DNA from: an uncultured Spirochaetaceae bacterium
Lineage (GTDB): Bacteria; Spirochaetota; Spirochaetia; Treponematales; Treponemataceae
Assembly: GCA_902778325.1 (NCBI GenBank)
Contig: CACYWZ010000006.1
Coordinates: 16,624 to 80,623 of the forward strand
Length of the DNA: 64,000 nucleotides
Reading direction: 5' to 3'
In this document: piece by piece, positions 712 through 52,966 of the stretch
How positions within the stretch are numbered: the first letter of the stretch is position 1
How the letters are laid out: every line of letters begins with the position of its first letter
Position numbers and translations under genes: made by a program
The notes under the pieces: generated by a model
Database searches by the model: none
Seen by the model: the letters and a program-made list of their open reading frames with translations, nothing else
What the model was told of the DNA's origin: nothing

Positions 712-940
712 TAACTCGGAACGGCGTTTCCATAAACATGGAAAGCTCGCCAGTGACTCGGAACGGCGTTTCCATAAACATGGAAAGCCCGCCAGTGAGT
801 CGGAATGGCGTTTCCATAACTGTGGAAAGCCCGCCAGTGAGTCGGAACGGTGTTTCCATAAACGTGGAAAGCCCGTCAGTGACTCGGAATGACGTTTCCA
901 TAAACATGGAAAGCCCGCCAGTGACTCGGAACGGCGTTTA
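712..940. repeat. Array A: 42-bp tandem repeat, about 5.5 copies
   Basis: The unit is 42 bp and carries a perfect stem-loop, TTTCCAT-AAAC-ATGGAAA, followed by a C-C-A-G-T-G-A-rich linker with TCGGAACGG. Two units change the inner pair to T-G (GTGGAAA), which still pairs in RNA. Because 42 is a multiple of three, both strands are open through the array; the resulting low-complexity peptides are not credible proteins. The array fills the gap between the terminator of the TPR gene and the promoter of the next gene. Confidence 0.9.
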
Positions 941-985
941 AAAAAAAGGAGGCGCTCTCAAATGGTGTGAAGAGCGCCTTTTGTT
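940..985 (-). terminator. Rho-independent terminator of the TPR lipoprotein gene
   Basis: GGCGCTCT (951-958) and AGAGCGCC (971-978) form an 8-bp stem with a 12-base loop. On the minus strand it is followed by CC and a run of T (the A run at 940-947). It lies 26 bases after the stop codon of the TPR gene. Confidence 0.8.
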
Positions 986-1010
986 TATATTTGGAAAAAT
1001 ATTTCAAAGC

Positions 1011-1652
1011 TTACAAGCCCGCACTGAAAAGACTTTCTTCGACTTTTTGGCGGAAATCTGCTCCAGCGCCGCGTTTTTCGGCTTTGGCTAGCGCGGAGAG
1101 GGCTTTTTCTTTTTGTTTGTCTTTGGCATAAGCGAGCGCAAGATTTGCGTGAAAATCGGCAGTGCGGGAGTTCATTTTTACGGCTTTTTCAAGAAAAACT
1201 ATCGCGTCTTTCACGCGGTTTGTCCTCAAGCACAAAGCGCCAAGACAGCCGTAGGCGTCGGCTTTTTTCGGCGCAAAGACGATAGCCTCGCGATATGTTT
1301 CTTCGGCTTCAGAAAAGCGCTGGGAACGCTCTTGGAGAGATGCGAGAAGCAAATATGTCGTGTAATCTTTTCGGCTTTCAAGCGCTTTTTTGTAATAAAC
1401 CATCGCGCAATCGCACTTGTCGTTCTGGGTGTAGGCTGCGGCGATAAAAGTATAGAGAAGCTCGTCGGAATACGAGGTGTCTGCAAGAAGCGCTTCGCGG
1501 AAATAATCGGCGGCATTCTCATATTTTCCGTTTTTGAGCGCCTCCATTCCGTCAGAAACAATACTGTCGCCAGGTTTTGAACAACCGAACAAAAAAACAG
1601 ATGTGCAAAGAGCAAAAAATAGTGTCAATTTGGAAAAAATCTTGTTAGCCAT
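1011..1652 (-). CDS. TPR-repeat lipoprotein
   Basis: 213 residues. The N-terminus is a lipoprotein signal peptide with lysines at 4 and 8, a hydrophobic core, and L-F-G-C ending at Cys24, so the mature protein is probably lipid-anchored in the envelope. Residues ~35-200 are four to five tetratricopeptide repeats, with the usual small/Tyr/Ala spacing and alternating helices. TPR arrays bind partner proteins; the partner cannot be told from sequence. The gene is divergent from the MinD-like gene. No convincing ribosome binding site precedes the ATG. It has its own terminator at 940-985, so it is probably a single-gene transcript. Confidence 0.8.
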   Translation of the reverse strand: MANKIFSKLTLFFALCTSVFLFGCSKPGDSIVSDGMEALKNGKYENAADYFREALLADTSYSDELLYTFIAAAYTQNDKCDCAMVYYKKALESRKDYTTYLLLASLQERSQRFSEAEETYREAIVFAPKKADAYGCLGALCLRTNRVKDAIVFLEKAVKMNSRTADFHANLALAYAKDKQKEKALSALAKAEKRGAGADFRQKVEESLFSAGL

Positions 1653-1672
1653 AATTAGAATATAATAAAATG

Positions 1673-1701
1673 TTGAAAAAATTACAAATACAACCTATAC
1701 T
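1673..1701 (+). promoter_or_regulatory. sigma-70 type promoter immediately before the MinD-like gene
   Basis: TTGAAA (1673-1678) and TATACT (1696-1701) are separated by 17 bases. The annotated ATG at 1708 is only 6 bases beyond the -10 box, so transcription should start at or very near the start codon. Confidence 0.6.
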
Positions 1702-1707
1702 AGAATT

Positions 1708-5103: not shown

Positions 5104-6672
5104 ATGCCAGAAATTCAAGAACAACTCGGAAAAGCAATTTTTGATTATTTTTTACAACGTACATCTCCAAACGAAGATTTTTATTTGTTAGTTGATTCAT
5201 ACACTTATGAATATTGTGCAAATCAAGCAGGATTAACAGAAAGTGACATCAACAAACTTCTTGAAGGATATGGATTCTATGATTGTTATAAACCTCTTAG
5301 TTCATTAGCTATAGCAGCTCTTGAAGTAAAAATAGCTTATGATGTTGAAACTAACTCAGATTTAATTAACAGCTACAATCGTCGATTGATTGAAAAAATA
5401 AAGTATTGTGAAGATGAAAATTCAGTTCAAAAATTGTATCAAACTTGTGACCAAGAAGCTATTTGGAGAAGGACAAAGGAATTATTTGCAGAAAAGAATA
5501 GAACTCTTTTAATTCCTGAAGCAAAAACAAAAAAAGGACGATATGTACAATTTCCATTATCTCAAAGAATTGTTTCTGGACGAAAAATCATTGAATATGC
5601 AGATAAATTTATTGAATTGGGATTAGAGCAAAATTCAGGAATTACTTTTGATTATTTTGAAAAACTTGTTCTTAAAAAATCAGAAGATAAAATGATAAAA
5701 AGAATGGTGTTCTCTTTTTATTGTATGTGGGACGGACGGTCTTACAACGAGATTTATAATCGTACGAAAATTTCTAATGCACAACGAGAACAACAAGCAA
5801 AAGATGAATTCTGCATTCGCTTAGAGCCAGAAATAGCAATCTATATCAATCAGAAGAAAATTGATTTTGAGAAAGATGAAATTGATTATAAGTATTTATG
5901 GAAACTTGATGAAAACAAGTATTTGACTCATAAGGGAATTGTTTTTATCCAAGATGAGAACTATAACGATTGGCTTCCGTTAGCTCGCAATAAATCAATA
6001 GATATAAATGAAGATGTTTTATTGATTTCTCAGCAACAGAATGTTCCGAAACATATTGAAGATTTTATCAAAAACGGGAAAGCAGAAATCTTTGAAATTG
6101 GAAAGTATAGATTAATTTTGCTCTCGTGTTTTTCACAAGAAGATTTTGAAGAACTTGGAATAAAAGTAACACAAATTCCATATTTTTCTTTATTAGGTGG
6201 TTTAAAAATAAAGAGAAATACTTATTATGACTTTGCGCTTCCTGCAATAAAATTGAGTGATAATTTTAAAGACTATAAAAAAATTTTTGTTGATTTAAAA
6301 GAATATCCTGTAGAAAATGGAATTGCAAAACTAACTGACAAATTAAGTGCTGGTAAACATTACGTAAAACTTCTCAATTCTTGGAAATCTTCAGAAGTTT
6401 ATTTTTATGTCGAGAATGTACAAAATACCGAAATTGCAGATATTCACGGCTGGGATTTGAATTGTGCAAAACAAAAAGCAGAGCCTGCGCAAGATTCTGA
6501 AAAAATAATAGACGGCTTAAAATCCTGCAAAGAACTAAAATGGATTTTCAAAGATGAAAGCAAAACTGATGAAACTTTGAGAACTTTTCAAAGACAAAAT
6601 GATAAACTAGTAAATCGGTTTATCAAAATTGGAAATATGAAACTAAACAGGAGAAGTCAATATGGCAACTAA
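5104..6672 (+). CDS. Druantia-like operon gene 1 (DruB-like position), unknown function
   Basis: 522 residues, no signal peptide or membrane segment. I recognise no enzyme motif. The first ~220 residues look helical and rich in Tyr, Glu and Lys. The C-terminal third (from about 355, G-G-L-K-I then alternating hydrophobic strands to ~440) looks like a beta-rich Ig-like domain. Base composition is markedly more AT-rich than the flanking chemotaxis genes, which suggests transfer. The ribosome binding site is weak. The gene overlaps the next by 11 bp. Its size and first position fit DruB of type I Druantia; that comparison rests on gene order, size and the linked helicase, not on detected homology. 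Confidence 0.5.
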   Translation: MPEIQEQLGKAIFDYFLQRTSPNEDFYLLVDSYTYEYCANQAGLTESDINKLLEGYGFYDCYKPLSSLAIAALEVKIAYDVETNSDLINSYNRRLIEKIKYCEDENSVQKLYQTCDQEAIWRRTKELFAEKNRTLLIPEAKTKKGRYVQFPLSQRIVSGRKIIEYADKFIELGLEQNSGITFDYFEKLVLKKSEDKMIKRMVFSFYCMWDGRSYNEIYNRTKISNAQREQQAKDEFCIRLEPEIAIYINQKKIDFEKDEIDYKYLWKLDENKYLTHKGIVFIQDENYNDWLPLARNKSIDINEDVLLISQQQNVPKHIEDFIKNGKAEIFEIGKYRLILLSCFSQEDFEELGIKVTQIPYFSLLGGLKIKRNTYYDFALPAIKLSDNFKDYKKIFVDLKEYPVENGIAKLTDKLSAGKHYVKLLNSWKSSEVYFYVENVQNTEIADIHGWDLNCAKQKAEPAQDSEKIIDGLKSCKELKWIFKDESKTDETLRTFQRQNDKLVNRFIKIGNMKLNRRSQYGN

Positions 6673-8587
6673 TGAAGATATTTTGAGTTCAAGAATACTT
6701 GGTTTTATTGAGCCTCAGGGAATTAACGCAAGAGTAGATGTTATTGGCTTTAAGGCTCCTAATAATGACTATGAAATCTTAGACAATACACGAAAAAGAA
6801 ACATTTTCTATCCAGAAGGATTTGTTTTTGCTCCTAAGTTTCAATTTGAACAAAGCAATATTTCTCCAAACTCTTTTATAGAATTCAATGTAATTCAAAG
6901 TCAAAAAGAGGAAGTTTCTTATAAAGATGACAGATTTGTTGTTAATTATCATAGTTCTATTCCCGTAAAGCAAAAGTCTTTTACAAGAATTATCTCTATA
7001 AACGAACATACTGCTCTTGAAGACGGATTTTTGGTTCAAGATGAGATTTTTCCGCTCATACAAAATAAAAATATCGAAAGTATTCAGGGAAGTTTTTTCT
7101 TGAAGTTTCAGAACAACCTTTATGGGCTTTTTAAATATGACGAAAATTCCAAAACCATAAAGCCAAAATCTGGCAAACAGACAAATGAATACAATCTAAA
7201 TGAGGATTATCTAAAAGGCAGATGTTATAACTTTGAAGGGAAAGAATACTTTGTTGGAAATCCTGACCAACTAGGAAATCCTGTTCGCTCTATCGATTGT
7301 ATGAGCGATGAACAGTTAGCAGATTGGTTCAAAGAGAGAATGGAGGCTGTTATAAAATCAGAGCCATTTCTTGAACTAAAGAAAGATAACTACAAAATTT
7401 TTTCTCAACACTTCAAAGCCGTTGATGACGAAAAATTAGAAGAAACTCGTCTTGAAAGAATAAAAGGAAAAATCAATACTCTTGAATATAATTTTTATGA
7501 AATAAAAGAACTTCTTGAGCCAAATTCAACTTTGACACAACACTTAAAATCAACAATTCTAGATATGAGAGATGATTTTAGGGCTGAATGGGCAAAGAAT
7601 CTTCAAAATGAAAAAGCACAGATTCAATCTGAAATTGCTGAATTAAGAGGAGAAAGTAATAAGATAAAAAGTGAAAAAGAAAACTTTGAGACAGAACTTT
7701 CAAAATTGAAATCAGATTTCAATGTAAAATCAGAAATCTTACAAAATGATTTTGATGAGAAAAAGAAAAAACTTGAAAATTCGCTTTCTGAAACAGAAAG
7801 AAAGTATAACGCTATAAAAGCCAATTATGATTTGATTGTTGAAAGCATAAAATTGCAAACATCTTTAAAAAGTCAGCCAATAACAGAGTTTGTAAATTTA
7901 GAGCCAGTTATCTTTGAAGCAAAAGGAGAAACATTTTCTCACCTCGAAGAAAATGAAGGATATTCGTTCAATTCGCTTTTACGCAAAAACCTTAAAAGCG
8001 AAGATTTGTCAGAAATATTAACTGAACAGCTCAACAGAGAAAGTGAATTATTCTCTTACAAAGCCTGCTTTATTCCATCTGTTTCTTGGGCTTATTTTTA
8101 TGCAAAAGCGTTGCGAAATGTTAGGCTATACACAATCCACGTTGAACACGACTGGCTTCATTTCAAAGATTTTATCAACAATGGGATTCTTGATGTTTTG
8201 AAGTCTTGCGATGAAAATAAAGACGTAAATCACATTCTCGTTTTTGATTCTTTGAATCTGACACAGCCTGAATGTGGATTGAAGCCTTTGCTAGACGCAA
8301 TATCAGGTTATTCGCTGATTCTTCCTGTTTTTAATAAGCCTTTGCCAAACAATTTGAAAATCTTTGCAACAATTTTGCCATTTTGCGAGGAAAACAAAAT
8401 CGGGCTTCCATTGAACAAAGATTCTTTTGTAAATTGGGGACAAATATCAAATCCTGAAGACAAACTGACTCTTTCTGCTAAATTTATGGACTTTGAAACA
8501 CAGACAGGATATTTTGAACCAAAAGATTTAGAAGTTCATAATATTCAGCCAAAAGAATGGAGCAACAATGGATATTTTGCAGAATAA
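6662..8587 (+). CDS. Druantia-like operon gene 2: coiled coil plus degenerate AAA+-like C-terminus
   Basis: 641 residues. The N-terminal ~220 residues are beta-rich with no known motif. Residues ~305-400 form a long, strongly charged coiled coil. The C-terminal ~200 residues look like an ATPase core: a Walker B/Arg-less strand H-I-L-V-F-D-S-L-N-L-T near 525 and a sensor-1-like strand N-L-K-I-F-A-T-I-L-P near 565, the arrangement seen in McrB-type AAA+ proteins. No Walker A (GxxxxGK[ST]) is present, so it is probably not an active ATPase. A good site (AGGAGA) precedes the ATG, which overlaps gene 1. Position and length fit DruC. Confidence 0.5.
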   Translation: MATNEDILSSRILGFIEPQGINARVDVIGFKAPNNDYEILDNTRKRNIFYPEGFVFAPKFQFEQSNISPNSFIEFNVIQSQKEEVSYKDDRFVVNYHSSIPVKQKSFTRIISINEHTALEDGFLVQDEIFPLIQNKNIESIQGSFFLKFQNNLYGLFKYDENSKTIKPKSGKQTNEYNLNEDYLKGRCYNFEGKEYFVGNPDQLGNPVRSIDCMSDEQLADWFKERMEAVIKSEPFLELKKDNYKIFSQHFKAVDDEKLEETRLERIKGKINTLEYNFYEIKELLEPNSTLTQHLKSTILDMRDDFRAEWAKNLQNEKAQIQSEIAELRGESNKIKSEKENFETELSKLKSDFNVKSEILQNDFDEKKKKLENSLSETERKYNAIKANYDLIVESIKLQTSLKSQPITEFVNLEPVIFEAKGETFSHLEENEGYSFNSLLRKNLKSEDLSEILTEQLNRESELFSYKACFIPSVSWAYFYAKALRNVRLYTIHVEHDWLHFKDFINNGILDVLKSCDENKDVNHILVFDSLNLTQPECGLKPLLDAISGYSLILPVFNKPLPNNLKIFATILPFCEENKIGLPLNKDSFVNWGQISNPEDKLTLSAKFMDFETQTGYFEPKDLEVHNIQPKEWSNNGYFAE

Positions 8588-9374
8588 CTTGCCAGATGAA
8601 CAATTTTTTGAGATTCAGAGCAAACTCATTATGCGGCTGAAAAAACAAAGTTTTGTATCCTGGAAACAGATTCAAAAAACTTGCAAAACTCTTCTTGAAG
8701 CATACCCAGAAAGTTACTCCGCTCAATATGGCAATTTTCCAGAATATAAACTGTTTATGCCTTTGCTCAGAAACGGAATTTGTGAAGTTGCAAAAGAAAA
8801 TGAAAAAACAGGCTATGTAGCTTTGCCAGAACTTGCAGACTCTGAAGAAACACTAAATCCATTGCTGTTATTAAATAATTTTCCATGCATAAATGACTTA
8901 ATAAACGGTTTTAAGAAAGAAGATTCTTTGGAATTAAAGTTCAAATGCAATTTGGAAGACAAATATTCTTACAAGCCTTTTTCTGAAAAAAGTTTGGAAA
9001 TTGGGATTTATAGACCAGAAGACAAAGTTTATGCAGTAACTTTGCTTTTTGACGGAAAAGCAAAAAGAATTATTCCAGATTACAATAAAAATCCAGATGC
9101 AATAAATGTTGCAAGATGTTTTGCACGCTGTAGCAAAAATCAGCAGCTGTTTACTTATCACAAGCAATCTAAAGAACTGTCTACTTGTTTTTATTCAGAA
9201 CTTCCGATTCTCGTTTCAAGAGCATTGATTCTTTTTGATAAATCGCAACTAAAAAATGCGATGTACAATTATCCTCTTTCAAGAAATCAGCCTTATCATA
9301 ATGTAGATGAAAAAGCAGTAGAAGAATTAGAAAGAATTTTTGGAGCAAATTGCATAGAGGTGAAAAATGATTAA
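8568..9374 (+). CDS. Druantia-like operon gene 3 (DruD-like position), unknown function
   Basis: 268 residues, apparently cytoplasmic, with no motif I recognise. It starts 20 bp inside gene 2 with GGAG 7 bases upstream of the ATG, and its end overlaps the helicase gene by 8 bp, so all four proteins are translationally coupled. That coupling suggests fixed stoichiometry or a complex. The short length and position before the giant helicase correspond to DruD of type I Druantia, but this is only positional evidence. Confidence 0.5.
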   Translation: MDILQNNLPDEQFFEIQSKLIMRLKKQSFVSWKQIQKTCKTLLEAYPESYSAQYGNFPEYKLFMPLLRNGICEVAKENEKTGYVALPELADSEETLNPLLLLNNFPCINDLINGFKKEDSLELKFKCNLEDKYSYKPFSEKSLEIGIYRPEDKVYAVTLLFDGKAKRIIPDYNKNPDAINVARCFARCSKNQQLFTYHKQSKELSTCFYSELPILVSRALILFDKSQLKNAMYNYPLSRNQPYHNVDEKAVEELERIFGANCIEVKND

Positions 9375-12300
9375 TCCTGTAAAAATTGGCAGAACATTAA
9401 AAGAAATATATCTCAAATATCTTGATACAGGTATTCCGCTCAGAGAAAAATGCTACATTGATGAACGCAGAAAGTTATATTCAGAAAATGGTGTTATTAT
9501 GCAATCGCCAATTATTGAACTTGTAAACAAATACGAAGGCGTGGAAACAATAAGCCAATGCTGCAAAGAAAATAATATTTCAAGCGATGTCAGCGATTTT
9601 TTGAATCTTGGACTTTTGAAATCCAATTCAGAAGAAATAAAAATCTATGCACATCAGAAAAAAGCATTTTTGAGCGTTCTTAAAAACAACAAAAATATGG
9701 TTGTTACAACAGGAACTGGTTCTGGAAAAACAGAGTGCTTTATGCTGCCTGTTATTGCAAATCTTGTTGATGAATCTAAAAACTGGGGAGAACCAGAAGA
9801 AAGAGAACATGCCATAAGAACATTGATTATGTATCCGCTCAACGCCCTTGCAGAAGACCAAATGGTTCGTTTGAGAAAATCTCTTGATGATGAAGATGTG
9901 AAAGAATGGCTTGATGAACACAGAAAGGGAAACAGATTTACTTTTGGTCGCTACACAGGAAGAACTCCTGGAAAAATGGGAGAATCAAGAAGTCATGCTC
10001 TTTCAAAATTCAAATCTCAATGGGAGAACTTAAAATCTCAAAAAGAAAATAATCCTAAAATTTACAACGAATTGAAGTATTCAATTCCGTGTACTGATGA
10101 AAATTCAGCGGAACAAATTGTTCGTCAAGATATGCAAAACAATCCGCCAGACATTCTCATAACAAACTACAGTATGTTGAACATAATGCTTATGAGAGAG
10201 AGGGAAGAAGATATCTTTGAAAAAACAAAACAATGGCTAGAAGAAGATAAATCTCATATTTTCACTTTGGTCATAGATGAGCTTCATACTTATCGCGGAA
10301 CGGCAGGCACAGAAGTTTCTTACATCTTAAAAGTTCTGTTGAACAGAATTGGGCTTTCTCCAGATTCTCCTCTAGTACGATTTCTTGCTTCCAGTGCGTC
10401 TATGGACAAAAATGAAAAAACAGAAGCATTTATCTCTGATTTTTTTGGAGTTTCAGCCACTTCTTTTGAATTAATTTCAGATACAGCAAAAGCACCTATA
10501 AACAAAAATCAACTTCCAGATTTACCTTTGAGCCTTTTTGACGAAATTTGTAAAAACGAAATTGATGAGCAAAGAGAATCTGAAATTCTTGAAATATTGA
10601 AAGCTCATAATTTTTCTTCATTTTTTGAGTTTACAGAAAAGTATAAACTGACAGAATGGCTCTCCTACTCGCTTCAAGATGACGAAAACAAAATCTTCGC
10701 CAGAAATATTGAATATATGGCTTCAAGGCTTTTTGGAAAAAATTCAAATGCAGAAAAATATATTGAATGTTTGATTTCTTTGATAAACCTCACCAAAGAT
10801 AAAAAAGAAAACTATATTCAGCCTGTAAGAGCACATTATTTTGCAAGAAATATCGAGCACATTTGGATTTGTTCATCAGGAGAATGCACCGCCGTTGCAG
10901 AAGACTTCAGAAACCCTACTAGAAAATTCGGAAAGCTGTATTCATCGCCAATAAAACGCTGTGATTGCGGTGCAAAAGTCTATGAAGCCATTGTTTGCCG
11001 TCAATGCGGAGAAATCTTTTTGTATGGTTATGATAATGCAAAAGATGGTAAACAGTATTTTGAAAGCACTCATTCTCTAATTTCTAATACGATTTCAAAT
11101 GCTATTATTTTTAAGAAAACAGCAGGTCAAGAACTATTTGATGAAAAGGGAAATCAACAGCATTGGCAGAATACAAATTTTAATTGCATTACAGGAGAAA
11201 TCCAAAAAAATAGATATGCAACAGATTTTTGCCAGTACGATAAAAAAGAGTCAAAAGCTCCATTCCCAGAACAATGTCCATCTTGTGGCTATCATATAAA
11301 ATATGCAGAAAACGAGCAGACTTTTACTCCTATTTCAACGCACGGAACTGGTGTTCAGAAAGTCAATCAAGTTTTTGCAGATTCTCTTTCAAGAATTCTT
11401 AGAAGCAAAAAAGAAAAAGCAAAATTGATTTTATTCTCAGACAGCCGACAAGGAGCTGCAAAACTTTCAGCAGGTATTGAACTTGACCATTATAGAGATG
11501 AAATCCGTCTTGCAATGCTCAATTCTTTAGACTCAGAAGAAGAATGTCTTTCATATTTGAAAAAATGGAGAGAAGATGAAATTTCATACAAAGAAATTCC
11601 TTCTGAAATAAAAGAGAAACTGAAAGAGCCTTATTTTGATTCTATAAAAAATGCTATTCGAGCAGAAAAAGACGAAGAAGAGCCTGAAAAAGACTTAGAT
11701 TCTATATTTAATGCTTCAAACACAGACATCGAAAAAATTGTTGACGGAGTTATTGAAAAACTTCTTGATGTCGGAATAAATCCAGCAGGTTCTTATCCAA
11801 GCTATCAATTTTATGGAGATGATTCAAAGTGGACAAAAACTGTAGACTGGAACAAAAATCGTTTTAACAGAGAAACTGTTCCACAACAAGAATTCGCTGA
11901 TAAAATCAGAAGCAAATGCCGTGCAGAATTGCTAAAAACAGCTTTTGGTTCTAATAAAAGAACTTTTGAGCAACTTGGAATTGGCTATTTCAAAGCAAAA
12001 GAAACAAAAGGCATTGACCAAGAATTTATTGATTCAGCCATTCGTATTCTTGGAGAATCTTGGCGTATTTATGACAATAATAGACAATATTTGTCAAAAG
12101 GCTTTCCAAAGCGATTGTGGAAATTTGCTGAAAATGTCTATAAAGAGAAGATGAAAGGCAATCATCCCAAAATGGAAAATTTGAAAACTGCTCTAGCAAA
12201 TCTGCATATTATAAAAGAAGAGGAAGATGTTGCATTGACAGGCGAAAATATTGAATTTGTAAAAGCAGAGAATTGCAAATATCTTTGGAAATGTAACCGA

Positions 12301-14592
12301 TGTGGAACAATTCATTTACATCATTCAATGGGATTCTGTACATTCTGCGGTGCAAGACTGACAGATGACTGTAAACATGAAACTGCAACTTTTGAAAGAG
12401 ATTCTTTTTATACATCTGAAATCTTTGGAACAGAACTTTCAAGGCTTCACTGTGAAGAGCTGACAGGGCAAACAGATGATAATGACGCTTTAGACAGGCA
12501 AAGACTTTTTCAAGATTTAGTAAAAGAAAACGAAATTGGAAAAGTTGAAGCCATTGACTTGCTTTCTGTAACCACAACAATGGAAGCTGGCGTTGATATA
12601 GGCTCTCTTTCTGCTGTTATGATGGGCAATGTTCCTCCTCAAAGATTTAATTATCAGCAGCGTGTTGGTCGTGCAGGTCGAAGAAATACGCCTCTCTCAT
12701 TGGCTCTTACTGTTGCTCGCGTAAACAGCCACGACCAAAAACATTATTCTCAGCCAGAACGAATGGTTTCAGGTCAGTCTGCAAATCCATATATTGATTT
12801 GAGAAGTACGGATATTTTATATCGTTTTATCAACAAAGAAATCCTCCGAAGAGCCTACATCGAAAAAGGCATAAAACCAGAGAAAAGTTCTGTCCACGGA
12901 GAATTTGGAACTGTTTCTGAATGGAAAGAAAACTCAAAACTAATAGCAGATTGGCTTTCAAACAATCAAGCAGCTATTAAAGAGATTGTTACAACTTATG
13001 CAAATAAAGCTGCTGCTGCAAAAATCAATGAAATAGTTTCTTACATTCAAAACAATCTTGTTAAAAAGATTTCTGAGAAAATAAAGAAAGACGGATTTAT
13101 CCAATATGAACTATCAGAACGGCTTGCAGCAACAGGAATGCTTCCAATGTTCGGCTTTCCAACTCAAGTTCGTTATTTATATGAAGCTGCCCCGAAACGA
13201 TTTCCGCCAGAAAAAGTGACTGACAGACAAATGGATATAGCTTTAACTTCATTTACACCTGGCTGTGAAATCGTAAAAGACAAAAAGATTCTCAAATCCA
13301 TTGGTTTTATCACTTATGAAAGCGACAGAGGTCAACCTAAAGAAAAGAACGGTTTGCACGAGTTCAAAGATAAAAAATTGCTTTGCTGCAAAAACTGTTC
13401 TTATATTTCTCTTGTTGATAAGAATGTTGAAGACAAATGCCCAATTTGCAACACTGAAATACAACCTATCAACAATGTTGCTTCTCCACTAGGATACAGA
13501 ACAGAATTCTCAAAGAGTGCTGTAAAAGATTTTGACGGCAGATTTGAGTGGCTTCCAATGACAAGCGAAACTCGAATTGACAGCGACCAAACTGAGATTG
13601 AATTAAAATCTGTTGCAAACACAAATCTTTTGATTGGTAACAATGAATATCCAGAAAAAGGTGTTGTAAACACAATCAACACAAATCAAGGACAACTGTT
13701 CAGCTTGGTAAAATCCAATAAACACGAAGGCTGGTATGATTCTAATTGCGTGATTTATCAAAAAGATTTTGCTTTTGACGACGCTTCTAGAAAAGAGTTT
13801 GCTCTCATCTCTTCAAAAATTACAGGTACTTTAGAAATCTGTATTAATTCTACAAATGAAGAATTAAATTTGAGTCCGTTGTTCGATACAACTTCTACAA
13901 ATACAATTCTCGAAAATGAACGACTTATATCTCTAAAAGGTGCTTTTATCTCTTGGGGAAACTTATTAAGAAAAACCATAACCGACTATTTGGATATTGA
14001 AACAACCGAACTTACTGCTGATTATTTTGTTCGTAGAGAAAATCAAGATGATTCATCTGTTAGAGCAGGTGTATTTATGGTCGAACAACTTGAAAATGGA
14101 GCTGGATATACAAATTTTATTGGTCAAACAGACGCAAAAACGCAATATGATATTTTCTTAAAAGAACTTCTGCCAAATGGTTATTTATACAACAAGCTTA
14201 CAAGCATTTCTCACAAAGAAAACTGTGACAGTGCTTGTTACGATTGTCTTTGCGATTACTACAATCAACGTTATCATAGTATGCTTGATTGGCGTTTAGC
14301 TTTAGATTTAGCACAAGTTGCAGAAAATAAGCAATATGTTCCAGATTTTATAAACAACAGCTATTGGAAATCATTGCTAGAAAAGCGGATAAGTGCATAT
14401 AAAAGCCAAGAAAATGATGCTGTTGATTACACAGAAGAAAAAGAAACCTTTATAATTCATACTAGCAATGAGAACGTTTTGCTGGCTCACCCATTTTGGA
14501 GTAAAAACAAAATAGACTCTCTTTGCACGAAATACAATTGTAGTTTTGACAAAGTTATTTACATAAACAGATTTATTCAGAATTTTCAATAA
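9367..14592 (+). CDS. DruE-like giant DExH helicase with DUF1998/MZB-type Cys cluster
   Basis: 1741 residues. Superfamily 2 helicase motifs are clear: Walker A T-G-T-G-S-G-K-T with K121, DExH box D304-E-L-H307, a helicase domain 2 segment T-T-M-E-A-G-V-D-I-G near 1070, and motif VI Q-Q-R-V-G-R-A-G-R-R at 1097-1106. Several zinc-binding Cys pairs are inserted: near 502-555, C-x-x-C-G near 640, two pairs near 975-1000, two near 1340-1365. At 1620-1629 is C-x3-C-x2-C-x-C, the C-terminal Cys cluster typical of DUF1998 (MZB) helicases. Among known systems, single helicases of this size with this tail are DruE of Druantia; MrfA/YprA is less than half the length and DISARM splits the parts between DrmA and DrmB. 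GAGGTG precedes the ATG. AT-rich, as the rest of the operon. The helicase call is certain; the Druantia assignment is likely but not proven. Confidence 0.8.
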   Translation: MINPVKIGRTLKEIYLKYLDTGIPLREKCYIDERRKLYSENGVIMQSPIIELVNKYEGVETISQCCKENNISSDVSDFLNLGLLKSNSEEIKIYAHQKKAFLSVLKNNKNMVVTTGTGSGKTECFMLPVIANLVDESKNWGEPEEREHAIRTLIMYPLNALAEDQMVRLRKSLDDEDVKEWLDEHRKGNRFTFGRYTGRTPGKMGESRSHALSKFKSQWENLKSQKENNPKIYNELKYSIPCTDENSAEQIVRQDMQNNPPDILITNYSMLNIMLMREREEDIFEKTKQWLEEDKSHIFTLVIDELHTYRGTAGTEVSYILKVLLNRIGLSPDSPLVRFLASSASMDKNEKTEAFISDFFGVSATSFELISDTAKAPINKNQLPDLPLSLFDEICKNEIDEQRESEILEILKAHNFSSFFEFTEKYKLTEWLSYSLQDDENKIFARNIEYMASRLFGKNSNAEKYIECLISLINLTKDKKENYIQPVRAHYFARNIEHIWICSSGECTAVAEDFRNPTRKFGKLYSSPIKRCDCGAKVYEAIVCRQCGEIFLYGYDNAKDGKQYFESTHSLISNTISNAIIFKKTAGQELFDEKGNQQHWQNTNFNCITGEIQKNRYATDFCQYDKKESKAPFPEQCPSCGYHIKYAENEQTFTPISTHGTGVQKVNQVFADSLSRILRSKKEKAKLILFSDSRQGAAKLSAGIELDHYRDEIRLAMLNSLDSEEECLSYLKKWREDEISYKEIPSEIKEKLKEPYFDSIKNAIRAEKDEEEPEKDLDSIFNASNTDIEKIVDGVIEKLLDVGINPAGSYPSYQFYGDDSKWTKTVDWNKNRFNRETVPQQEFADKIRSKCRAELLKTAFGSNKRTFEQLGIGYFKAKETKGIDQEFIDSAIRILGESWRIYDNNRQYLSKGFPKRLWKFAENVYKEKMKGNHPKMENLKTALANLHIIKEEEDVALTGENIEFVKAENCKYLWKCNRCGTIHLHHSMGFCTFCGARLTDDCKHETATFERDSFYTSEIFGTELSRLHCEELTGQTDDNDALDRQRLFQDLVKENEIGKVEAIDLLSVTTTMEAGVDIGSLSAVMMGNVPPQRFNYQQRVGRAGRRNTPLSLALTVARVNSHDQKHYSQPERMVSGQSANPYIDLRSTDILYRFINKEILRRAYIEKGIKPEKSSVHGEFGTVSEWKENSKLIADWLSNNQAAIKEIVTTYANKAAAAKINEIVSYIQNNLVKKISEKIKKDGFIQYELSERLAATGMLPMFGFPTQVRYLYEAAPKRFPPEKVTDRQMDIALTSFTPGCEIVKDKKILKSIGFITYESDRGQPKEKNGLHEFKDKKLLCCKNCSYISLVDKNVEDKCPICNTEIQPINNVASPLGYRTEFSKSAVKDFDGRFEWLPMTSETRIDSDQTEIELKSVANTNLLIGNNEYPEKGVVNTINTNQGQLFSLVKSNKHEGWYDSNCVIYQKDFAFDDASRKEFALISSKITGTLEICINSTNEELNLSPLFDTTSTNTILENERLISLKGAFISWGNLLRKTITDYLDIETTELTADYFVRRENQDDSSVRAGVFMVEQLENGAGYTNFIGQTDAKTQYDIFLKELLPNGYLYNKLTSISHKENCDSACYDCLCDYYNQRYHSMLDWRLALDLAQVAENKQYVPDFINNSYWKSLLEKRISAYKSQENDAVDYTEEKETFIIHTSNENVLLAHPFWSKNKIDSLCTKYNCSFDKVIYINRFIQNFQ

Positions 14593-14684
14593 ACATGTTT
14601 GATAAATTGTTAGTTCGGAATTATCCCTTGAAACACTTAAAAAATTTGCACAAGAAATCCTTTCAGGATAAAACAAAGAATAGT

Positions 14685-14690
14685 TATAAT
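14685..14690 (+). promoter_or_regulatory. possible -10 box before the SprT-like gene
   Basis: A perfect TATAAT lies 22 bases before the ATG of the next gene, but no good -35 box is found at 16-18 bases upstream. The 119-base gap after the helicase gene holds a small hairpin (ATCCT-ttc-AGGAT) without a T run. Confidence 0.35.
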
Positions 14691-14711
14691 ATTTAAAACA
14701 AGAGAAAATAA

Positions 14712-15269
14712 ATGAAACAACTTTTTACAATTCTTTTTGTAGTTATTATTGCAGACATTATTATTTTTACATCTTGTATTAAAGAGTGTAGTTCACTATC
14801 AAATGAAATAAAAAATGTACAAGAAATAGAGATTGAAGATATTTATAAAACTGCAAAAGAATCAAGTATTATGCTTAGTGCGATTCCACATGCTATTAAG
14901 TATAATGACGAACTTAAAAACCGTGGAAAAGAACTTGAAAAGCTTTTTGAAAAGACTATGTTTCCTATTACAAGAGAAATAAGATACGCAGATTTAATCG
15001 ATGATACTGGATATGAAAATGTAACTGCAACTTGTTTGTATTTTGAAAGAGATGGATATCATTTAATTCTTCATAATCAAAAATATGAAATACCAGACAA
15101 TCTTATTATTCACGAACTTTGTCACGCAGCGTTAAGTTGTGCAAATATAAAGTCTAACGACCATACTGGAGAAGAATGGGATTATCTTTGTGATTATTTT
15201 GAATCTATTGGCTACAATCCGCTTCGTGATGGCTATTCTTATGGTATAAAATCATTTGCTTTTGAGTAA
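14712..15269 (+). CDS. SprT-like zinc metallopeptidase with lipoprotein-type signal
   Basis: 185 residues. The first ~20 residues are hydrophobic and end in F-T-S-C (Cys22), consistent with the loose spirochetal lipobox. H134-E-L-C-H138 is a gluzincin HExxH motif, and a downstream D-H-T-G-E-E-W-D-Y-L segment resembles the third-ligand region of SprT/Spartan-type peptidases. SprT proteins are normally cytoplasmic proteases of DNA-protein crosslinks; a membrane-anchored form is odd. Composition matches the AT-rich helicase operon just upstream, so it may belong to the same transferred block. Whether it takes part in defence is unknown. Confidence 0.55.
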   Translation: MKQLFTILFVVIIADIIIFTSCIKECSSLSNEIKNVQEIEIEDIYKTAKESSIMLSAIPHAIKYNDELKNRGKELEKLFEKTMFPITREIRYADLIDDTGYENVTATCLYFERDGYHLILHNQKYEIPDNLIIHELCHAALSCANIKSNDHTGEEWDYLCDYFESIGYNPLRDGYSYGIKSFAFE

Positions 15270-26309: not shown

Positions 26310-26341
26310 AAGAGCGCCCTCAATTTTGAGGGCGTTTTTTT
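26310..26341 (+). terminator. Rho-independent terminator of the chemotaxis locus
   Basis: CGCCCTC (26315-26321) pairs with GAGGGCG (26328-26334) across a 6-base loop, followed by seven T. It lies immediately after the third cheW. Confidence 0.9.
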
Positions 26342-26350
26342 ACCAATTGC

Positions 26351-26592: not shown

Positions 26593-26623
26593 ATTGGTTT
26601 TGAAAATGGAAAAGAAAAGGCAT

Positions 26624-26651: not shown

Positions 26652-26688
26652 TTTGCTGATTATCGATTTTTTCACGAGGTATTTTTTT

Positions 26689-36769: not shown

Positions 36770-36854
36770 CGACCCCATAGGGTCGTGCCGTGCGACCTTA
36801 TAGGGTCGTGCAATCCGACCTTATAGGGTCGCACACATCTACCGCATAGGGTAG
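36770..36854. repeat. Array E: 23-bp hairpin repeat, four copies, between convergent genes
   Basis: Units start at 36770, 36793, 36816 and 36839, exactly 23 bp apart. Each is a 5-6 bp stem: CGACC...GGTCG in units 1-3 and CTACC...GGTAG in unit 4, so both arms of unit 4 changed together. Loops are CCATA, TTATA, TTATA and GCATA. The A run before unit 1 gives a T run on the minus strand, so the first hairpin may terminate rpiA; a bidirectional terminator role is plausible. Confidence 0.85.
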
Positions 36855-41680: not shown

Positions 41681-41764
41681 TTTATGTGCCCCTTAAATAT
41701 CTTGATAACGATTTTCATTCTACCAAACTCGCCTATAATTTTCTACAGAATTTTTCCGATTGTT

Positions 41765-42056
41765 GACTTTTCGTTTTTTTGGCGTTCAGAAGAGTTCCGA
41801 ACGCTGTCTCTTCATTTTTTTGCCCTTCACAAGTGTTCCGAATGCTATCTCTTCATCTTTTTGCCCTTCACAAGTGTTCCGAACGCTGGCTCTTCATCTT
41901 TTTGCCCTTCGGAAATGTTCCGAACGCTCTCCTTTCATCTTTTTGCCCTTCACAAGCGTTCCGAGCGCTGTCTCTTCATCTTTTTGCCTTTCGGGATTTT
42001 TCCGAGCGCTCACTTTTCATTTTTTTGCCTTTCGGAAATGTTCCGAGCGCTGTTTT
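41765..42056. repeat. Array F: 41-bp tandem repeat, about seven copies
   Basis: Equivalent bases recur at 41825, 41866, 41907, 41948 and 41989, exactly 41 bp apart. The unit is a dyad followed by CGCT, a pyrimidine-rich linker (CTCTTCATCTTTTTGCC). The dyad takes two forms: TTCGGAA-atg-TTCCGAA, and CTTCACAAGTG with a CAC-aa-GTG stem. The array lies upstream of def and downstream of the VOC gene, filling 41.7-42.06 kb; no gene is seen there. Confidence 0.9.
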
Positions 42057-45654: not shown

Positions 45655-46995
45655 CTACAAATATCTTCCTGCCAGCTGCGCAATTTTGCCGACGAGTTTG
45701 TATGAGATTATTTTACACAAAAAATCAGTGAATTTTCCGTATTTACGATAAAACAAGTTGAATGTAAGATAAGCGGCTCTTTGCTCCTTGCAGTCGGGAA
45801 GCCGCTTCAAAATATTTTTGAGGCTGTAGACGTTGCGGTAAATCCAAAGATAGCCCTCGTACAATTCTTCTGCGCTCATATTTTTGGGCTTATAAACAAC
45901 GTGCGCCGTGTTATATTTTGAAAAATCCGTCGATGTGATTCTGTCCGCTTTTTTCAGTTCCTCGTAAACTTTCGTTCCGGGATATGGCGTGAGAATATGC
46001 GAGGTCACGGTTTCGATTTTGTTTTTTACAATCCAGTCCAGCGTCGTTTTGAATGTTTCCGTGCTGTCGCCGTCAAGCCCGAAGACAAAACTTCCGTGAA
46101 TCATAATTCCGCGCTTGTGGATTTCAGAAATCGCGTTCTCATAGTTTTTGATGTTGTTCTGAACTTTATGCACGTTTGAAATGGACGAAGGGTTTATGCT
46201 CTCAAATCCGATGAAAAGACTTTTGCAGCCAGCTTCTTTCATCAAATCCAAAAGCTCGCCGTCGTTCGCGACATTTATTGAAACAGCGGCATTCCACTTG
46301 ATTTTTAAGGGCTTCAGCTCTTCAAGGAATTTTCTTGTCCATGCAGGATTCCCGATAAAATTGTCATCGATGAACATTATGTGCCGCAAATTTATTTTCT
46401 TTATGTCTGCAAGAACATCATCAATATTTCGGTTTATGTATTTGTGATTTTTTGAGCTGTTATAGCAAAAATCACAACGAAAAGGACAGCCCCTGCTTGT
46501 ATGAACGATGTTCGTGTATAAATATTTGGATTTTTTTACAAAATCATAAGCTGGGGAAACTATTTCGTCCGCGCTGAAATTTTCTTTGCAACGGTAGATT
46601 TTCTTTAAGCTCTGCGTTTGCGCGTCTTTTATGATTTCTGGCCAAGTTCCTTCCGCATCCCCGATGCAGAGTGAATCAAACGCGTCTTGCGGAATAAAAT
46701 CCGGCGCGCTCGTTATCTGGATTCCTCCCGCAACGACAGGAATTCCCTTTTCCCTGAACTTCCTGCTGATTTCAATCGCGCGGTTCAGAACATCAACCGT
46801 AACCGAAATGCCGACCAAATCAGGCTTGTCGTCAAAATTGATTTTTTCGATATTTTCATTTTCAAGAACAACTTTGTGATTGTCTTTTAGAATACTGACG
46901 ATTGTAAGAAGCCCCAAAGGCGGTGCCATTCTGGCTTTTAAGCCCGTGTCCATCGGACGGCGCAGCATTTTGGGCTGGATGAGTTTTACGTACAT
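45655..46995 (-). CDS. B12-binding-domain radical SAM protein
   Basis: 446 residues. The N-terminal ~120 residues resemble a cobalamin-binding Rossmann domain (P-P-L-G-L-L-T-I then V-G-I-S-V-T and V-V-A-G-G-I). The radical SAM cluster motif is C170-x3-C174-x2-C177 (G-C-P-F-R-C-D-F-C-Y). The order matches the BchE/methyltransferase-like class B radical SAM enzymes, which methylate or rearrange unreactive carbons. The substrate is unknown. GGAGGAAAA precedes the ATG; it is the only clear enzyme in this block of small envelope proteins. Confidence 0.88.
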   Translation of the reverse strand: MYVKLIQPKMLRRPMDTGLKARMAPPLGLLTIVSILKDNHKVVLENENIEKINFDDKPDLVGISVTVDVLNRAIEISRKFREKGIPVVAGGIQITSAPDFIPQDAFDSLCIGDAEGTWPEIIKDAQTQSLKKIYRCKENFSADEIVSPAYDFVKKSKYLYTNIVHTSRGCPFRCDFCYNSSKNHKYINRNIDDVLADIKKINLRHIMFIDDNFIGNPAWTRKFLEELKPLKIKWNAAVSINVANDGELLDLMKEAGCKSLFIGFESINPSSISNVHKVQNNIKNYENAISEIHKRGIMIHGSFVFGLDGDSTETFKTTLDWIVKNKIETVTSHILTPYPGTKVYEELKKADRITSTDFSKYNTAHVVYKPKNMSAEELYEGYLWIYRNVYSLKNILKRLPDCKEQRAAYLTFNLFYRKYGKFTDFLCKIISYKLVGKIAQLAGRYL

Positions 46996-47016
46996 TTTTT
47001 CCTCCGTTTGTCATGC

Positions 47017-47096
47017 GTCATGCTGAACTTGTTTTCAGCATCTGTGTTTGCTGAGCGAAGCCGAAGCATGGATTTTGAAACGAGTTCGCCAATGAC
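47017..47096. repeat. dispersed ~80-bp palindromic element, copy 3
   Basis: GTCATGCTGAACTTG to CCAATGACA, same internal TGCTGAGCGAAG core. Lies upstream of the radical SAM gene. Confidence 0.78.
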
Positions 47097-47132
47097 AGGT
47101 GTTTTCAACAGGCTCAACCTCAATAAAAGCCG

Positions 47133-47358
47133 CCTTCCTTGCCGTAAGGATTCTGGCTTTTTTGAAATTTGGGCAATCCTTATTGTAAGGAACGATGACT
47201 TTTTGGAAAACCGCGAATCCTCAAAATAAGGAAAGCCGACTTTTGCAAGGGCGATTTTCCTCAAAATAAGGATTTCTGGCTTTCTGCAAATCTGCCTTTC
47301 CTTAAAATAAGGAACGCCGTTTTTGGAAATTGCCACTTTCCTTATGTTAAGGAAAGCC
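47133..47358. repeat. Array G: 40-41 bp tandem repeat, six copies
   Basis: Dyads start at 47137, 47178, 47219, 47259, 47300 and 47340. Each is a 5-6 bp stem, CCTTA...TAAGG, with a short loop (CCTTATTGTAAGG, CCTTAAAATAAGG, CCTTATGTTAAGG). Two units read CCTCAAAATAAGG, keeping pairing through a wobble in one RNA strand. The linker is GAAAGCC-type followed by T-rich or TTTGGAAA-type sequence. Together with two palindromic elements it fills 46996-47533, in which no gene is seen. Confidence 0.9.
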
Positions 47359-47446
47359 CTAATACACCCAGCCGATTTCTTCAAAAGTGCCATAATCAAA
47401 AAGCAGAACGTTGTGCAGAGCCGAAACATCGTGCTTTCCGCCGTTT

Positions 47447-47525
47447 GTCATGCTGAACCCGTTTCAGTATCTGCGGTTGCTGAGCGAAGTCAAAGCATAG
47501 ACCTTGAAACAAGTTCAGGGTGACG
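47447..47525. repeat. dispersed ~80-bp palindromic element, copy 4
   Basis: GTCATGCTGAACCCG to CAGGGTGACG. The arms match closely (GTTTCAGTATCTG with CTTGAAACAAGTTCAGGGTGAC). Confidence 0.78.
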
Positions 47526-50734: not shown

Positions 50735-50757
50735 ATTTCAATTCACGGAGGAATAAG

Positions 50758-51066
50758 ATGAGTATTCAATTGACAGAACAGAACTTCCAGAGCGAAGTTC
50801 TTGAATCAGATAAGCCAGTTTTGGTAGATTTCTGGGCGCCTTGGTGTGGTCCTTGCAAAATGATGGGACCTGTCATCGAAGACCTCGCTAACGAAATGGG
50901 CGATAGTGTAAAAATCGGCAAGGTCAACGTTGATGATGAGGAAGAACTTGCACAAAAATACGGCATTATGAACATTCCGTGTTTTATCGTCTTCAAAGGC
51001 GGTCAGGCTGTGAACCAGAAAGTCGGCGGCTGCTCAAAAGAAGCACTGAAAGAACTTTTTGCATAA
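50758..51066 (+). CDS. trxA: thioredoxin
   Basis: 102 residues from the ATG at 50758 (GGAGG upstream). Classical thioredoxin: F-W-A-P-W-C30-G-P-C33-K active site, F-K-G-G near 83 and V-G-G near 92. The cis-proline loop reads N-I-P-C, with a third cysteine where thioredoxins usually have Thr; this is worth noting because that residue contacts substrates. It reduces protein disulfides in the cytoplasm. Confidence 0.96.
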   Translation: MSIQLTEQNFQSEVLESDKPVLVDFWAPWCGPCKMMGPVIEDLANEMGDSVKIGKVNVDDEEELAQKYGIMNIPCFIVFKGGQAVNQKVGGCSKEALKELFA

Positions 51067-51139
51067 GAGGTTTTATAAGATATTTTGGCGCATTGCACAT
51101 CCTCCCACCCGTGCGATGCGCTTTTTTTCGCCCCAAACG

Positions 51140-51982
51140 CTAAATCCCGACAGAAATCGCGCTATGAGGGCAAATCGCCTTGCACTCGCCACAGCGAATA
51201 CAGTCGGCGCTATTAGGATTGCGCCAAACAGGAATATCGAGTTTGCAAGTCTTTTGACACGCACCGCATTTCGTGCATTTTTCCTCATCGACTTTGAAAC
51301 GATAAAACGAAATCTTGTTAAAAACGCCGTAAATAGCACCAAGCGGACACACATACCGGCAAAAGGGGCGATAAATCACGACAGACAAAAGCAATGTCAG
51401 CGCCAAAATCACAATCTTCCAGCGAAAAATGAACCCTGCTGCGCCTCTCATAGCGCTGTTGAGCAGCACGAGCGGAATTCCGCCCTCAAGTGTGCCAGCA
51501 GGACAAATCCACTTGCAAAACCACGGCTCCCCCAAGCCCGTGATGTCCACAACAAAAAGCGGCAAAAGAATGACGAAAACTCCAAGAATGAAAAAACGCA
51601 AATACCGCAAAGCGCCATCTTTCGGAAGCCGTCGAATTTTTTTTGCAAACGGGATTTTGAAAAGCAAATCTTGCAAAAGACCGAACGGGCACAAAAAGCC
51701 ACAAACAGCACGCCCAAGAAACACGCCAAAAACTGTCAAAAGCCCGATTACATAAAGCGATATTTTGTAATCGCGGCTCGACAAAACTGCTTGCAATGAG
51801 CCAATCGGACACGAAAAAACAGCGGCAGGACAAGAATAGCAATTAAGACCAGGCGCACAGATATATTTTGTCGCTCCCTCGAAAATCTCTTTTCGCGAAA
51901 AGCCTAAAACATATCCGTTCGATAGCGCACAAAAAGCGGCTTGGACAAAAAGCCGCAACTTGTTTTGAGATTTTCCTCGCAT
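51140..51982 (-). CDS. NapH/NosR-like membrane polyferredoxin
   Basis: 280 residues from the ATG at 51982 (start overlapping the upstream stop as TGATG; an ATG six codons earlier is possible). About five TM helices. Three membrane-edge motifs of the C-x3-C-P type (C-G-F-L-C-P, C-K-W-I-C-P, C-R-Y-V-C-P) plus an early C-x-x-C-P and two C-terminal 4Fe-4S clusters (C-T-K-C-G-A-C-x3-C and C-I-R-C-G-E-C-x3-C-P). It would carry electrons from quinol or ferredoxin across the membrane, here probably to the neighbouring thioredoxin-like protein. Confidence 0.85.
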   Translation of the reverse strand: MRGKSQNKLRLFVQAAFCALSNGYVLGFSRKEIFEGATKYICAPGLNCYSCPAAVFSCPIGSLQAVLSSRDYKISLYVIGLLTVFGVFLGRAVCGFLCPFGLLQDLLFKIPFAKKIRRLPKDGALRYLRFFILGVFVILLPLFVVDITGLGEPWFCKWICPAGTLEGGIPLVLLNSAMRGAAGFIFRWKIVILALTLLLSVVIYRPFCRYVCPLGAIYGVFNKISFYRFKVDEEKCTKCGACQKTCKLDIPVWRNPNSADCIRCGECKAICPHSAISVGI

Positions 51983-52131
51983 CAGCCAATCCCGATACAT
52001 TCAAGACAGATTCTTGTCGCTTTCAGAAACACCGTTTCGGCTTCCCCTCTCAGAACGCCTGCGACAACAAAGAAAAGTGCAAAAACTAAGAAGACAAAAG
52101 GAAGAATGAGGCGTTTTTTTGATGAAATCAT
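51982..52131 (-). CDS. CD1871A-like small CXXC membrane protein
   Basis: 49 residues from the ATG at 52131 (ATGA overlap with the TlpA-like stop). One TM helix (~8-26), then [10 protein letters not shown] and the C-terminal I-C-L-E-C-I-G-I-G. This peptide, with a C-x-x-C just before the end, is the CD1871A-type partner found with the same two neighbours. It could pass electrons from the polyferredoxin to the periplasmic thioredoxin. The gene is easily missed because of its size. Confidence 0.75.
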
Positions 52132-52646
52132 TTTGTTTTTGAAGCCAAAATAGACTGAATGAGCTTTTGCCATTCTTTTTCGTCGCGCGCACCAATCACT
52201 GAATGAATGACCTTTCCTGTGCTGTCAACAAAAAACGTCGTCGGAACAGCCTGAACGTTTTTGAGCACCGACGAAATCATTTTCTGAGACGGAACGATAT
52301 GCTTGTAATCCGCGCCCGTCTGTGAAACGATTTTTTCAGCATTTGCCTTTTGTCGAACATTGACGTTTCCCTTTCTGTCGGTAACATCAATAACAACGCC
52401 GACCACTTCAACACCACTATTCTTGTGTGATTCGCTTATTCTTGCCAAGTCAGGCATTTCACGGATACAAGGCCCGCAAAAAGTGCCCCAAACATTAATC
52501 ATCGTGATTTTGTTTTTAGAAAAAAGCTCTGAGCCGACGTTGTTTCCCGAAAAATCCTCGCCCGAAAACTCAATGACAGAGCCGACGCTTTGTGAAAAAA
52601 CAGCCGTCGCGCACAAAAAAACAATGATTGAAAAAATCTTTTTCAT
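52128..52646 (-). CDS. TlpA/ResA-like periplasmic thiol-disulfide protein
   Basis: 172 residues from the ATG at 52646 (GGGAGGG upstream). Signal peptide to about F-S-Q (residue 19). Thioredoxin fold with V-W-G-T-F-C57-G-P-C60, the E-M-P following, the TlpA-type insertion (V-D-V-T-D-R-K), and cis-Pro V-P-T-T-F-F-V-D. It is a reductase or reductant carrier in the periplasm. With the CXXC peptide and polyferredoxin it forms a three-gene redox module on one transcript. Confidence 0.88.
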
Positions 52647-52749
52647 AAAATCCCTCCCAAAAATCAAACGAATCTTATCATATTTTCGATTTTTATTCTG
52701 TTATTTCTAAGGAACTTTTTGTAATTTCCGCTCAGAATGACACCTAGAA

Positions 52750-52966
52750 AAAAAGTTGAGTTTAGTCGGATTTTTGAAAAGGAAGCGATTTATTGAATAA
52801 GTCTTTAAGGATTTCTCGCGAGGAAGTAAAGTATTGAATGAGTCTGAAAGGAATTTGCAAAAGGAAGTGAATTATTGAATGAGTATTGAAGAAAATCACT
52901 CAGGGAAGCAAACTCAACTTGAATTTTATCTCCCCGAGCAAAAAGGAAGCAAACTCAACTTTTTTA
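52750..52966. repeat. Array H: 41-bp periodic repeat, five copies
   Basis: GGAAG starts at 52781, 52822, 52863, 52904 and 52945, exactly 41 bp apart. Copies 1-3 continue GTGAATTATTGAATGAGT or variants (copy 1 has the dyad TTATT-g-AATAA). Copies 4-5 continue CAAACTCAACTT. The outer left flank (from 52752) has AAGTTGAGTTT, the inverse of AAACTCAACTT. It fills the region upstream of the divergent receptor gene (53035). Apart from this array, 52647-53034 holds no gene. Confidence 0.8.

Follow-up and report, generated by a model that had tools for sequence, protein, structure and literature searches.

The stretch of DNA analyzed here (the window, 64,000 nucleotides of contig CACYWZ010000006.1 from an uncultured Spirochaetaceae bacterium) contains eight intergenic tandem arrays, most of them with units of 40–43 bp that carry short dyads. 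Together with arrays of the same kind elsewhere in the genome, we read them as a single family of repeats with dyads that is specific to this lineage, resembles satellite DNA, and can be compared to bacterial interspersed mosaic elements (BIMEs), an interpretation that we hold tentatively and with slightly less than even confidence. We favor it because the period peak of this genome is nearly absent from its relatives, because the arrays form families and share half-units, some units having a second dyad, and because the dyads are conserved and co-vary, modules occur in both orientations, a loop is found inverted, and insertions and deletions (indels) are rare.

Period classes in the genome and its relatives

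The window is part of a 3.35-Mb assembly (G000; 173 contigs, 94% complete), and its proteins are closest to those of gut and rumen Treponema. For the polyphosphate kinase, the top identity was 61% among the best 80 of 172 matches in named genomes, a set from which records near the window were possibly omitted. Arrays were sought in a sample of 864 kb, composed of the window and 40 stretches of 20 kb (52 kb masked, leaving ~812 kb readable), by using a tandem-repeat scan (Tandem Repeats Finder, TRF) with cut-offs of a score of at least 80 and a length of at least 60 bp. In this analysis, 129 arrays passed the cut-offs, of which 79 had a period of 40–43 bp (48 at 41, 25 at 42, 5 at 40, and 1 at 43). 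The others had periods of 82–84 (5 arrays), 21 (16 arrays), 23–24 (14 arrays), 69 (11 arrays), and 7, 102, or 138 (4 arrays), and none fell at 25–39 or 44–68. When 275 spacers from the same genome (120–1500 bp) were examined by a lag scan that needs no alignment, 87 proved to be periodic, with the best lag at 41 in 43, at 42 in 22, at 40 in 3, at 21 in 9, at 23 in 5, and elsewhere in the remaining 5 (24, 63, 33, and, twice, 14). The shared period of 41–42 bp proposed from the window alone is thus found across the genome sample, which peaks at 41 and 42, with a smaller peak at 21, and is not evenly spread.

Among 277 complete units of the 40–43 class, 139 were 41 bp long, 105 were 42 bp, 25 were 40 bp, and 8 had other lengths; units of 43–45 bp numbered 5, and the one 43-bp array is L045:92 (2.4 copies). 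The array-mean period was 41.30 (standard deviation [sd] 0.51, range 40.0–42.0) in the 67 of 77 arrays that had four or more rows. The same limit defined the divergence counts given below and excluded the sole 43-bp array. In the period counts, the strictly alternating arrays, of which there were seven, were not scored as indels. Mean periods in the 21 class were 20.8–21.5, and the median array length was 197 bp. Scaling the 84 arrays of 40–43 and 82–84 bp over ~812 kb to the whole genome gives ~350, a figure that may be somewhat high because many of the sampled stretches start at contig ends, which are enriched for arrays (6 compared with 1.75 expected for 29 contig starts).

Coding repeats were rejected as an explanation, since the commonest period, 41, cannot hold the reading frame and only two of the 84 arrays lie over called genes. 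The arrays of 69 bp (23 codons) were set aside as apparent leucine-rich coding repeats, named by inspection; these 11 arrays occur in the stretches L056, L063, L066, and L069. Perfect short repeats were also seen, namely CAAGGCA (13.6 copies, L051:5585–5679), TTCCTTG (9.9 copies, L065:1020–1088), and GAACA (10.8 copies, L042:4212–4265), and these could be phase-variable loci.

Three sets of relatives, overlapping in some genomes, were scanned for comparison. The 12 same-genus genomes (~647 kb) gave 12 arrays, 80 named loci of relatives (1.39 Mb) gave 21, and 20 stretches from 16 genomes (355 kb) gave 11. Of these 44 arrays, pooled over ~2.39 Mb, two had a period of 42 (2.1 and 2.5 copies) and none had a period of 40, 41, or 43. 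The lag scan detected periodicity in 8 of the 458 spacers taken from relatives, with scattered lags, one of them at 42; a weak lag signal at 21 bp is probably missed coding sequence, as other multiples of 3 also rise. The family of the array at 21062 occurs in at least three places in G000 (three candidates were scored per genome) and, among 201 genomes of the genus, in one other genome, by a marginal match (E 4e-4), while another array family had no match in the genomes of nine named relatives. As far as sampled, the burst of arrays is restricted to the lineage of G000. Sporadic arrays of 22–24 bp are present in other Treponema (in the G005 sample and at L125:19083–19198, L133:1617–1697, and L198:480–558) and are independent of the 41–42-bp class. 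A phage or plasmid origin was rejected as well: one array was searched in each of a phage and a plasmid collection and had no match. Exact matches to two short patterns were found in 16 and 1 viral contigs, where the tandem repeats (period 18–25 or 39–44) reached at most 2.9 copies.

Half-units, families, and paired arms

Arrays that appeared to be coding were removed before the modules were analyzed, leaving 77 of 79 in the 40–43 class and 13 of 16 in the 21 class. Perfect stems of at least 6 bp were present in 62% of the 77 consensus units of the 40–43 class (23% in dinucleotide shuffles) and in 29% of those of the 23–24 class (5% in shuffles). The short dyads that the sequence-only reading had attributed to most arrays are therefore above chance in the 40–43 class, and its suggestion that the period corresponds to helical turns agrees with repeat classes lying near two and four turns. 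A second dyad (score of at least 5) was observed in 18 of the 77 units, but in only ~2% of shuffles, and in 13 of these 18 the distance between the two dyads was 19.5 bp or more, close to the half-period (46 of 248 in the null). In units with two dyads, these are spaced by about 20.5 bp. A likeness to halves of the 41-bp units was seen for the 21-bp arrays, with 50 similar pairs of 1001 where 10 were expected. For the 23–24-bp class, 8 of 1078 pairs were similar (10.8 expected), and because it lacks this likeness to half-units and similar arrays occur in a few relatives, the class was treated as a separate matter. Relative to the dyad, the phase at which arrays end departed weakly from randomness (p 0.0017 with the loosest cut for dyads and 0.29 with the strictest), and the phase at which they start did not. 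Clustered regularly interspaced short palindromic repeats (CRISPR) were rejected, as the whole unit repeats and unique spacers are absent (17 stacked arrays).

At a score of at least 20 (the maximum of 3000 random pairs being 18), the 77 arrays form 19 single-linkage clusters, with sizes of 18, 15, 10, 4, 4, 4, 3, 3, 3, 2, 2, and 2, plus seven singles. One half of ~20 bp was shared, the other being unrelated, in 23 of 2926 pairs, and both halves were shared in 22 (pairs not independent); shuffled pairs gave 0 and 0 of 1500. The arrays had been described as unrelated in sequence, and as keeping period and symmetry but not sequence. Many sequences do differ, and the statement holds for the period and the dyads, but it was overstated, as families recur and half-units and modules are common to different arrays.

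The family of the array at 26348 is found in 12 places, and several of its arrays match on both strands. In its alignment, from which units with fewer than 22 template-agreeing columns were dropped and in which some of the retained rows are poorly aligned, two columns of the first dyad that lie off the palindrome, 4 and 13, were G,G in 33 and C,C in 16 of 65 units and were never complementary, where 23 such pairs would be expected by chance. This pattern is as expected of a module present in both orientations. Relative to the loop of the second dyad, the first module stood in one orientation in 22 of the 65 units, in the other in 23, and was not assignable in 20; of the 12 arrays, 9 were uniform where assignable, 2 were mixed, and 1 was not assignable. 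Units of L240 and L034 share six identical inner arm pairs around GTTT in one and AAAC in the other, which is an exact loop inversion. A compact case of mosaic shuffling is the 21-bp array at L050:19152–19507 (17 copies), whose units mix sub-motifs, with GGACGAA or GGGGAAA as first halves.

Divergence from the consensus was lower in the dyad columns (0.094) than elsewhere (0.134; permutation p 0.0005). Double changes in the stems numbered 30 within arrays, compared with 11.4 expected, and 22 of the 30 were complementary; between the arrays of a family, they again numbered 30, compared with 12.3 expected, with 22 of 30 complementary (41 pairs, not independent). According to a study on yeast genes, template switching between short inverted repeats leads to homogenization of the arms and inversion of the spacer (PMC8604942). 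The lower divergence of the dyads, the co-variation of the arms, and the inverted modules and loops read as footprints that DNA template switching may have left in these sequences. Such footprints, and a burst in one lineage as sampled, would also suit runaway repeats following the loss of hairpin or mismatch repair. We consider this extremely improbable, as SbcD, XseA, and RecJ are all above the cut-off in G000 (SbcC, MutL, and ExoI being outside the search), and so is MutS, whose match stops one base short of a contig end.

Placement of the arrays in the genome and in the window

Genes were placed with a home-made caller, which missed some of them. The 84 arrays of 40–43 and 82–84 bp are distributed over tandem (40), convergent (23), and divergent (12) gene spaces, with 7 at stretch edges and 2 over called genes, as are 3 of the 16 arrays of the 21 class. 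Expressed per gene pair, an array was present in 23 of the 86 convergent pairs, 12 of the 89 divergent pairs, and 39 of the 467 tandem pairs. For all classes, the median distance was 60 bp to gene 3′ ends (n=114) and 126 bp to 5′ ends (n=88). This proximity to 3′ ends would favor RNA structures at transcript ends, either terminators or mRNA-stabilizing hairpins, as would the excess of terminator-like sites on the sense strand of tandem-space arrays (82 compared with 58 antisense). Counted by array, however, such sites are nearly equal on the two strands (30 of 60 sense and 27 of 60 antisense), at 34 of 114 facing gene ends the array is already preceded by a distinct terminator-like site, and 12 arrays occupy divergent spaces. 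In addition, stem transitions on the sense strand gave 58 G.U and 65 A.C; because G.U should exceed A.C in RNA, no RNA-strand bias is seen. Transcript-end structures, one of the roles suggested by the sequence-only reading, thus received little support, and we judge them very improbable.

The spacing of the arrays was also more even than in a null model with weights for spacer type and array-free length, with a coefficient of variation of the gaps of 0.58 compared with 0.77 (p 0.005, 48 gaps), and only 1 of 48 gaps (2%) was shorter than 2 kb, compared with 22% in the null. This spacing would suit architectural or topoisomerase sites, at which a dimeric nucleoid protein or gyrase reads dyads set two or four turns apart on one face of the helix, with many sequences tolerated and the pitch under selection. 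The classes at 21 and 41–42 bp, the tight array-mean period, the conservation of dyads relative to linkers, the richness of convergent pairs in arrays, and the median of 126 bp from gene starts all point in that direction. So does a wedge model in which the native unit length would be near the phase optimum, with the predicted curvature dropping from 0.555 to about 0.2 when the length is shifted by ±5 bp. On the other side, the 23–24-bp class (14 arrays) misfits the helix, there is no class of 31 or 52 bp (three or five turns), a 43-bp array and units of 43–45 bp exist, and the predicted curvature, 0.508, is not clearly raised over same-period shuffles (0.483) or array-free spacers (0.460). 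Deletion between repeats may simply purge close arrays. Moreover, much of the period is explained by rare indels: there were 46 units off the modal length and 1272 substitutions, and because length-changing indels are so rare, conservation of the period can largely come from common descent. Taking both sides together, we regard architectural sites, with possible selection on helical phase, as the main rival reading and as fairly unlikely; binding sites of a nucleoid or architectural protein were among the roles suggested by the sequence-only reading. It is distinctly unlikely, in our view, that the pitch is itself the conserved information, with a DNA-architecture system of the lineage setting any palindrome in helical phase as long as its spacing is maintained, in arrays of ~200 bp about every 7 kb.

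All eight arrays claimed for the window are present, seven being found by TRF and one by the spacing of its hairpins, and by our gene calls all are intergenic, in tandem, divergent, and convergent spaces, as had been stated. Five lie in tandem spaces. The first (697–939; 42 bp, 5.8 copies) belongs to a family with the core CCAGTGA(C/G)TCGGAACG. The second (21062–21435) alternates units of 41 and 42 bp, giving a super-period of 83, around the dyad CTCACA..TGTGAG, and the third (26348–26586; 42 bp) has two dyads per unit, centered at 8.5 and about 29.5. The array at 41746–42053 (41 bp) has its dyad around TTCCGAA, and that at 47133–47355 consists of six CCTT/CCTC..AAGG hairpins at distances of 41, 41, 40, 41, and 40 bp, too diverged for TRF at a score of 50. 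Two arrays are in divergent spaces: 34157–34333 (42/83 bp), with the dyad GGGCATTCGCCC and a half-unit in common with L066:7353, and 52777–52891 (41 bp, 2.8 copies), which is related to L066:15830 and whose final 13 bp overlap the next gene in its longest open reading frame (ORF) reading (52879). The hairpin array at 36770–36831, of the separate 23-bp period class, lies in a convergent space. Mechanical ORFs that overlap arrays, such as 26320–26994 (224 aa) and 46986–47429 (147 aa), were not called as genes. In the window, no Rfam family matched at the gathering score.

Other features of the window were observed in passing. An interspersed repeat with GTCATGCTGAAC and TTGCTGAGCGAAG flanks the array at 47133, at 47030–47100 and 47440–47520; its left copy is near GTTTGCTGAGCGAAG in place of TTGCTGAGCGAAG, and a copy of GTCATGCTGAAC also adjoins the array L044:16541, on another contig. 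A DEAD/DEAH helicase of 1741 aa (9367–14592), weakly similar to DpdJ, adjoins the large ORFs 5104–6672 and 6662–8587, which had no NCBIfam matches (the ORFs 8568–9374 and 14712–15269 being outside that search); the region 5104–15269 is possibly a defense island. The ORF at 34425–36764 (779 aa), which by eye contains parts like a GatB/Asn-Gln amidotransferase and an asparaginase, has matches spanning most of its length in G005, G011, G012, G017, G024, and G033.

Mechanism and known systems

A repeat-generating process, which was among the roles first proposed, fits the data best, as the exchange of half-units, the co-variation of arms, and the inversion of modules all occur at constant length. 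The building block would be a half-unit of about 20.5 bp, such that two different half-units in alternation would produce the 41–42-bp period, a single one repeated would produce the 21-bp period, and mixtures would produce the super-periods of 63 and 83. Units would be copied in tandem by slippage or unequal exchange, arrays would exchange half-units with other arrays, and template switching in hairpins would homogenize the arms and flip the loops. Modules would also spread between spacers. The period would persist mainly through the scarcity of length-changing indels relative to substitutions, and helical phasing of the dyads may add a constraint.

Several observations weigh against a satellite-like family that originated in this manner. 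Perfect stems of at least 6 bp are not enriched in the 21 class (0.15 compared with 0.16 in shuffles, 13 arrays), and because stems there are at the shuffle level, a palindrome in every half-unit was not borne out for this class; in the 40–43 class, second dyads are limited to the 18 of 77 units. The number of families depends on the threshold, as a single cluster takes 58 arrays at a score of 17. One array supplies 12 of the 22 complementary double changes, and the matching arms are about 6–8 bp long. No dispersal enzyme was found: an IS91-type Y2 transposase was not found in G000, in a search that found none in 14 control genomes and matched one relative, and no reverse transcriptase domain was found in G000. 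The even spacing of the arrays is not obviously predicted by mutation alone. Finally, the sd of the difference in period between arrays was 0.72, while 0.9–1.2 bp was estimated for fully diverged arrays, and a period tighter than this estimate hints at selection on length. Descent explains most of the shared period, but perhaps not its full tightness.

No such arrays in Treponema were found among the titles and abstract openings listed in a literature search, which left subscription journals largely uncovered. In eukaryotic satellites, monomer length persists while sequence turns over, and higher-order repeats are formed. Tandem amplification, families, and higher-order repeats are likewise found here, but the arrays are short, dispersed, bacterial, and dyad-bearing. 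The iteron arrays of plasmid origins also have sites about two turns apart, but an iteron array occurs once per replicon and is specific to a single protein, whereas the present arrays occupy many places and have many sequences.

BIMEs, composed of repetitive extragenic palindromic (REP) sequences and found in Escherichia coli, Pseudomonas, and Stenotrophomonas, are the closest known kind. As in these, the 40–43 class consists of intergenic imperfect palindromes in tandem mosaics, and in REPs the palindromes are kept by complementary changes and are species-specific (PMC2817692, PMC3733652). The same sources place REPs mainly between unidirectional and convergent genes, while here divergent spaces are used too. 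One of them describes the many species-specific families of BIMEs as tandem, mosaic, palindromic, and intergenic (PMC2817692), a likeness which would favor elements made by a transposase and moved by a REP-associated tyrosine transposase (RAYT). The Y1 transposase domain PF01797, however, had no match in G000, at 94% completeness, and was present in 9 of 25 genomes searched. Nor were the REP tags enriched when scored anywhere in the unit instead of by position next to the dyad (GTAG in 0.05, GTGG in 0.13, and CGTC in 0.21 of arrays, compared with 0.25, 0.18, and 0.18 in shuffles), and we therefore consider a RAYT origin very improbable. A further difference is that one pitch extends here over many sequences, whereas the inter-REP segments of Stenotrophomonas are said to vary substantially in length. 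Regular tandem arrays of alternating GI and GIII REPs are reported for Pseudomonas fluorescens SBW25 in another study, but these have separations of 112 and 72 bp, number eleven, and have a RAYT beside a cluster for each REPIN group (PMC3116915). Because neither a RAYT nor an enrichment of the tags was found, the present arrays were not classed as BIMEs, and they may work like them.

The arrays resemble satellite DNA and look like a rapidly evolving equivalent of it in a bacterium. They would constitute a natural library, without an evident transposase, from which the birth of repeats, the exchange of half-units, the co-variation of arms, and the inversion of modules can be read within one bacterial genome. 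Palindromic repeats are usually attributed to RAYTs or selection. The arrays raise the question of whether such repeats can be generated and retained by template switching and slippage alone, and of whether selection can act on the pitch of DNA irrespective of sequence.

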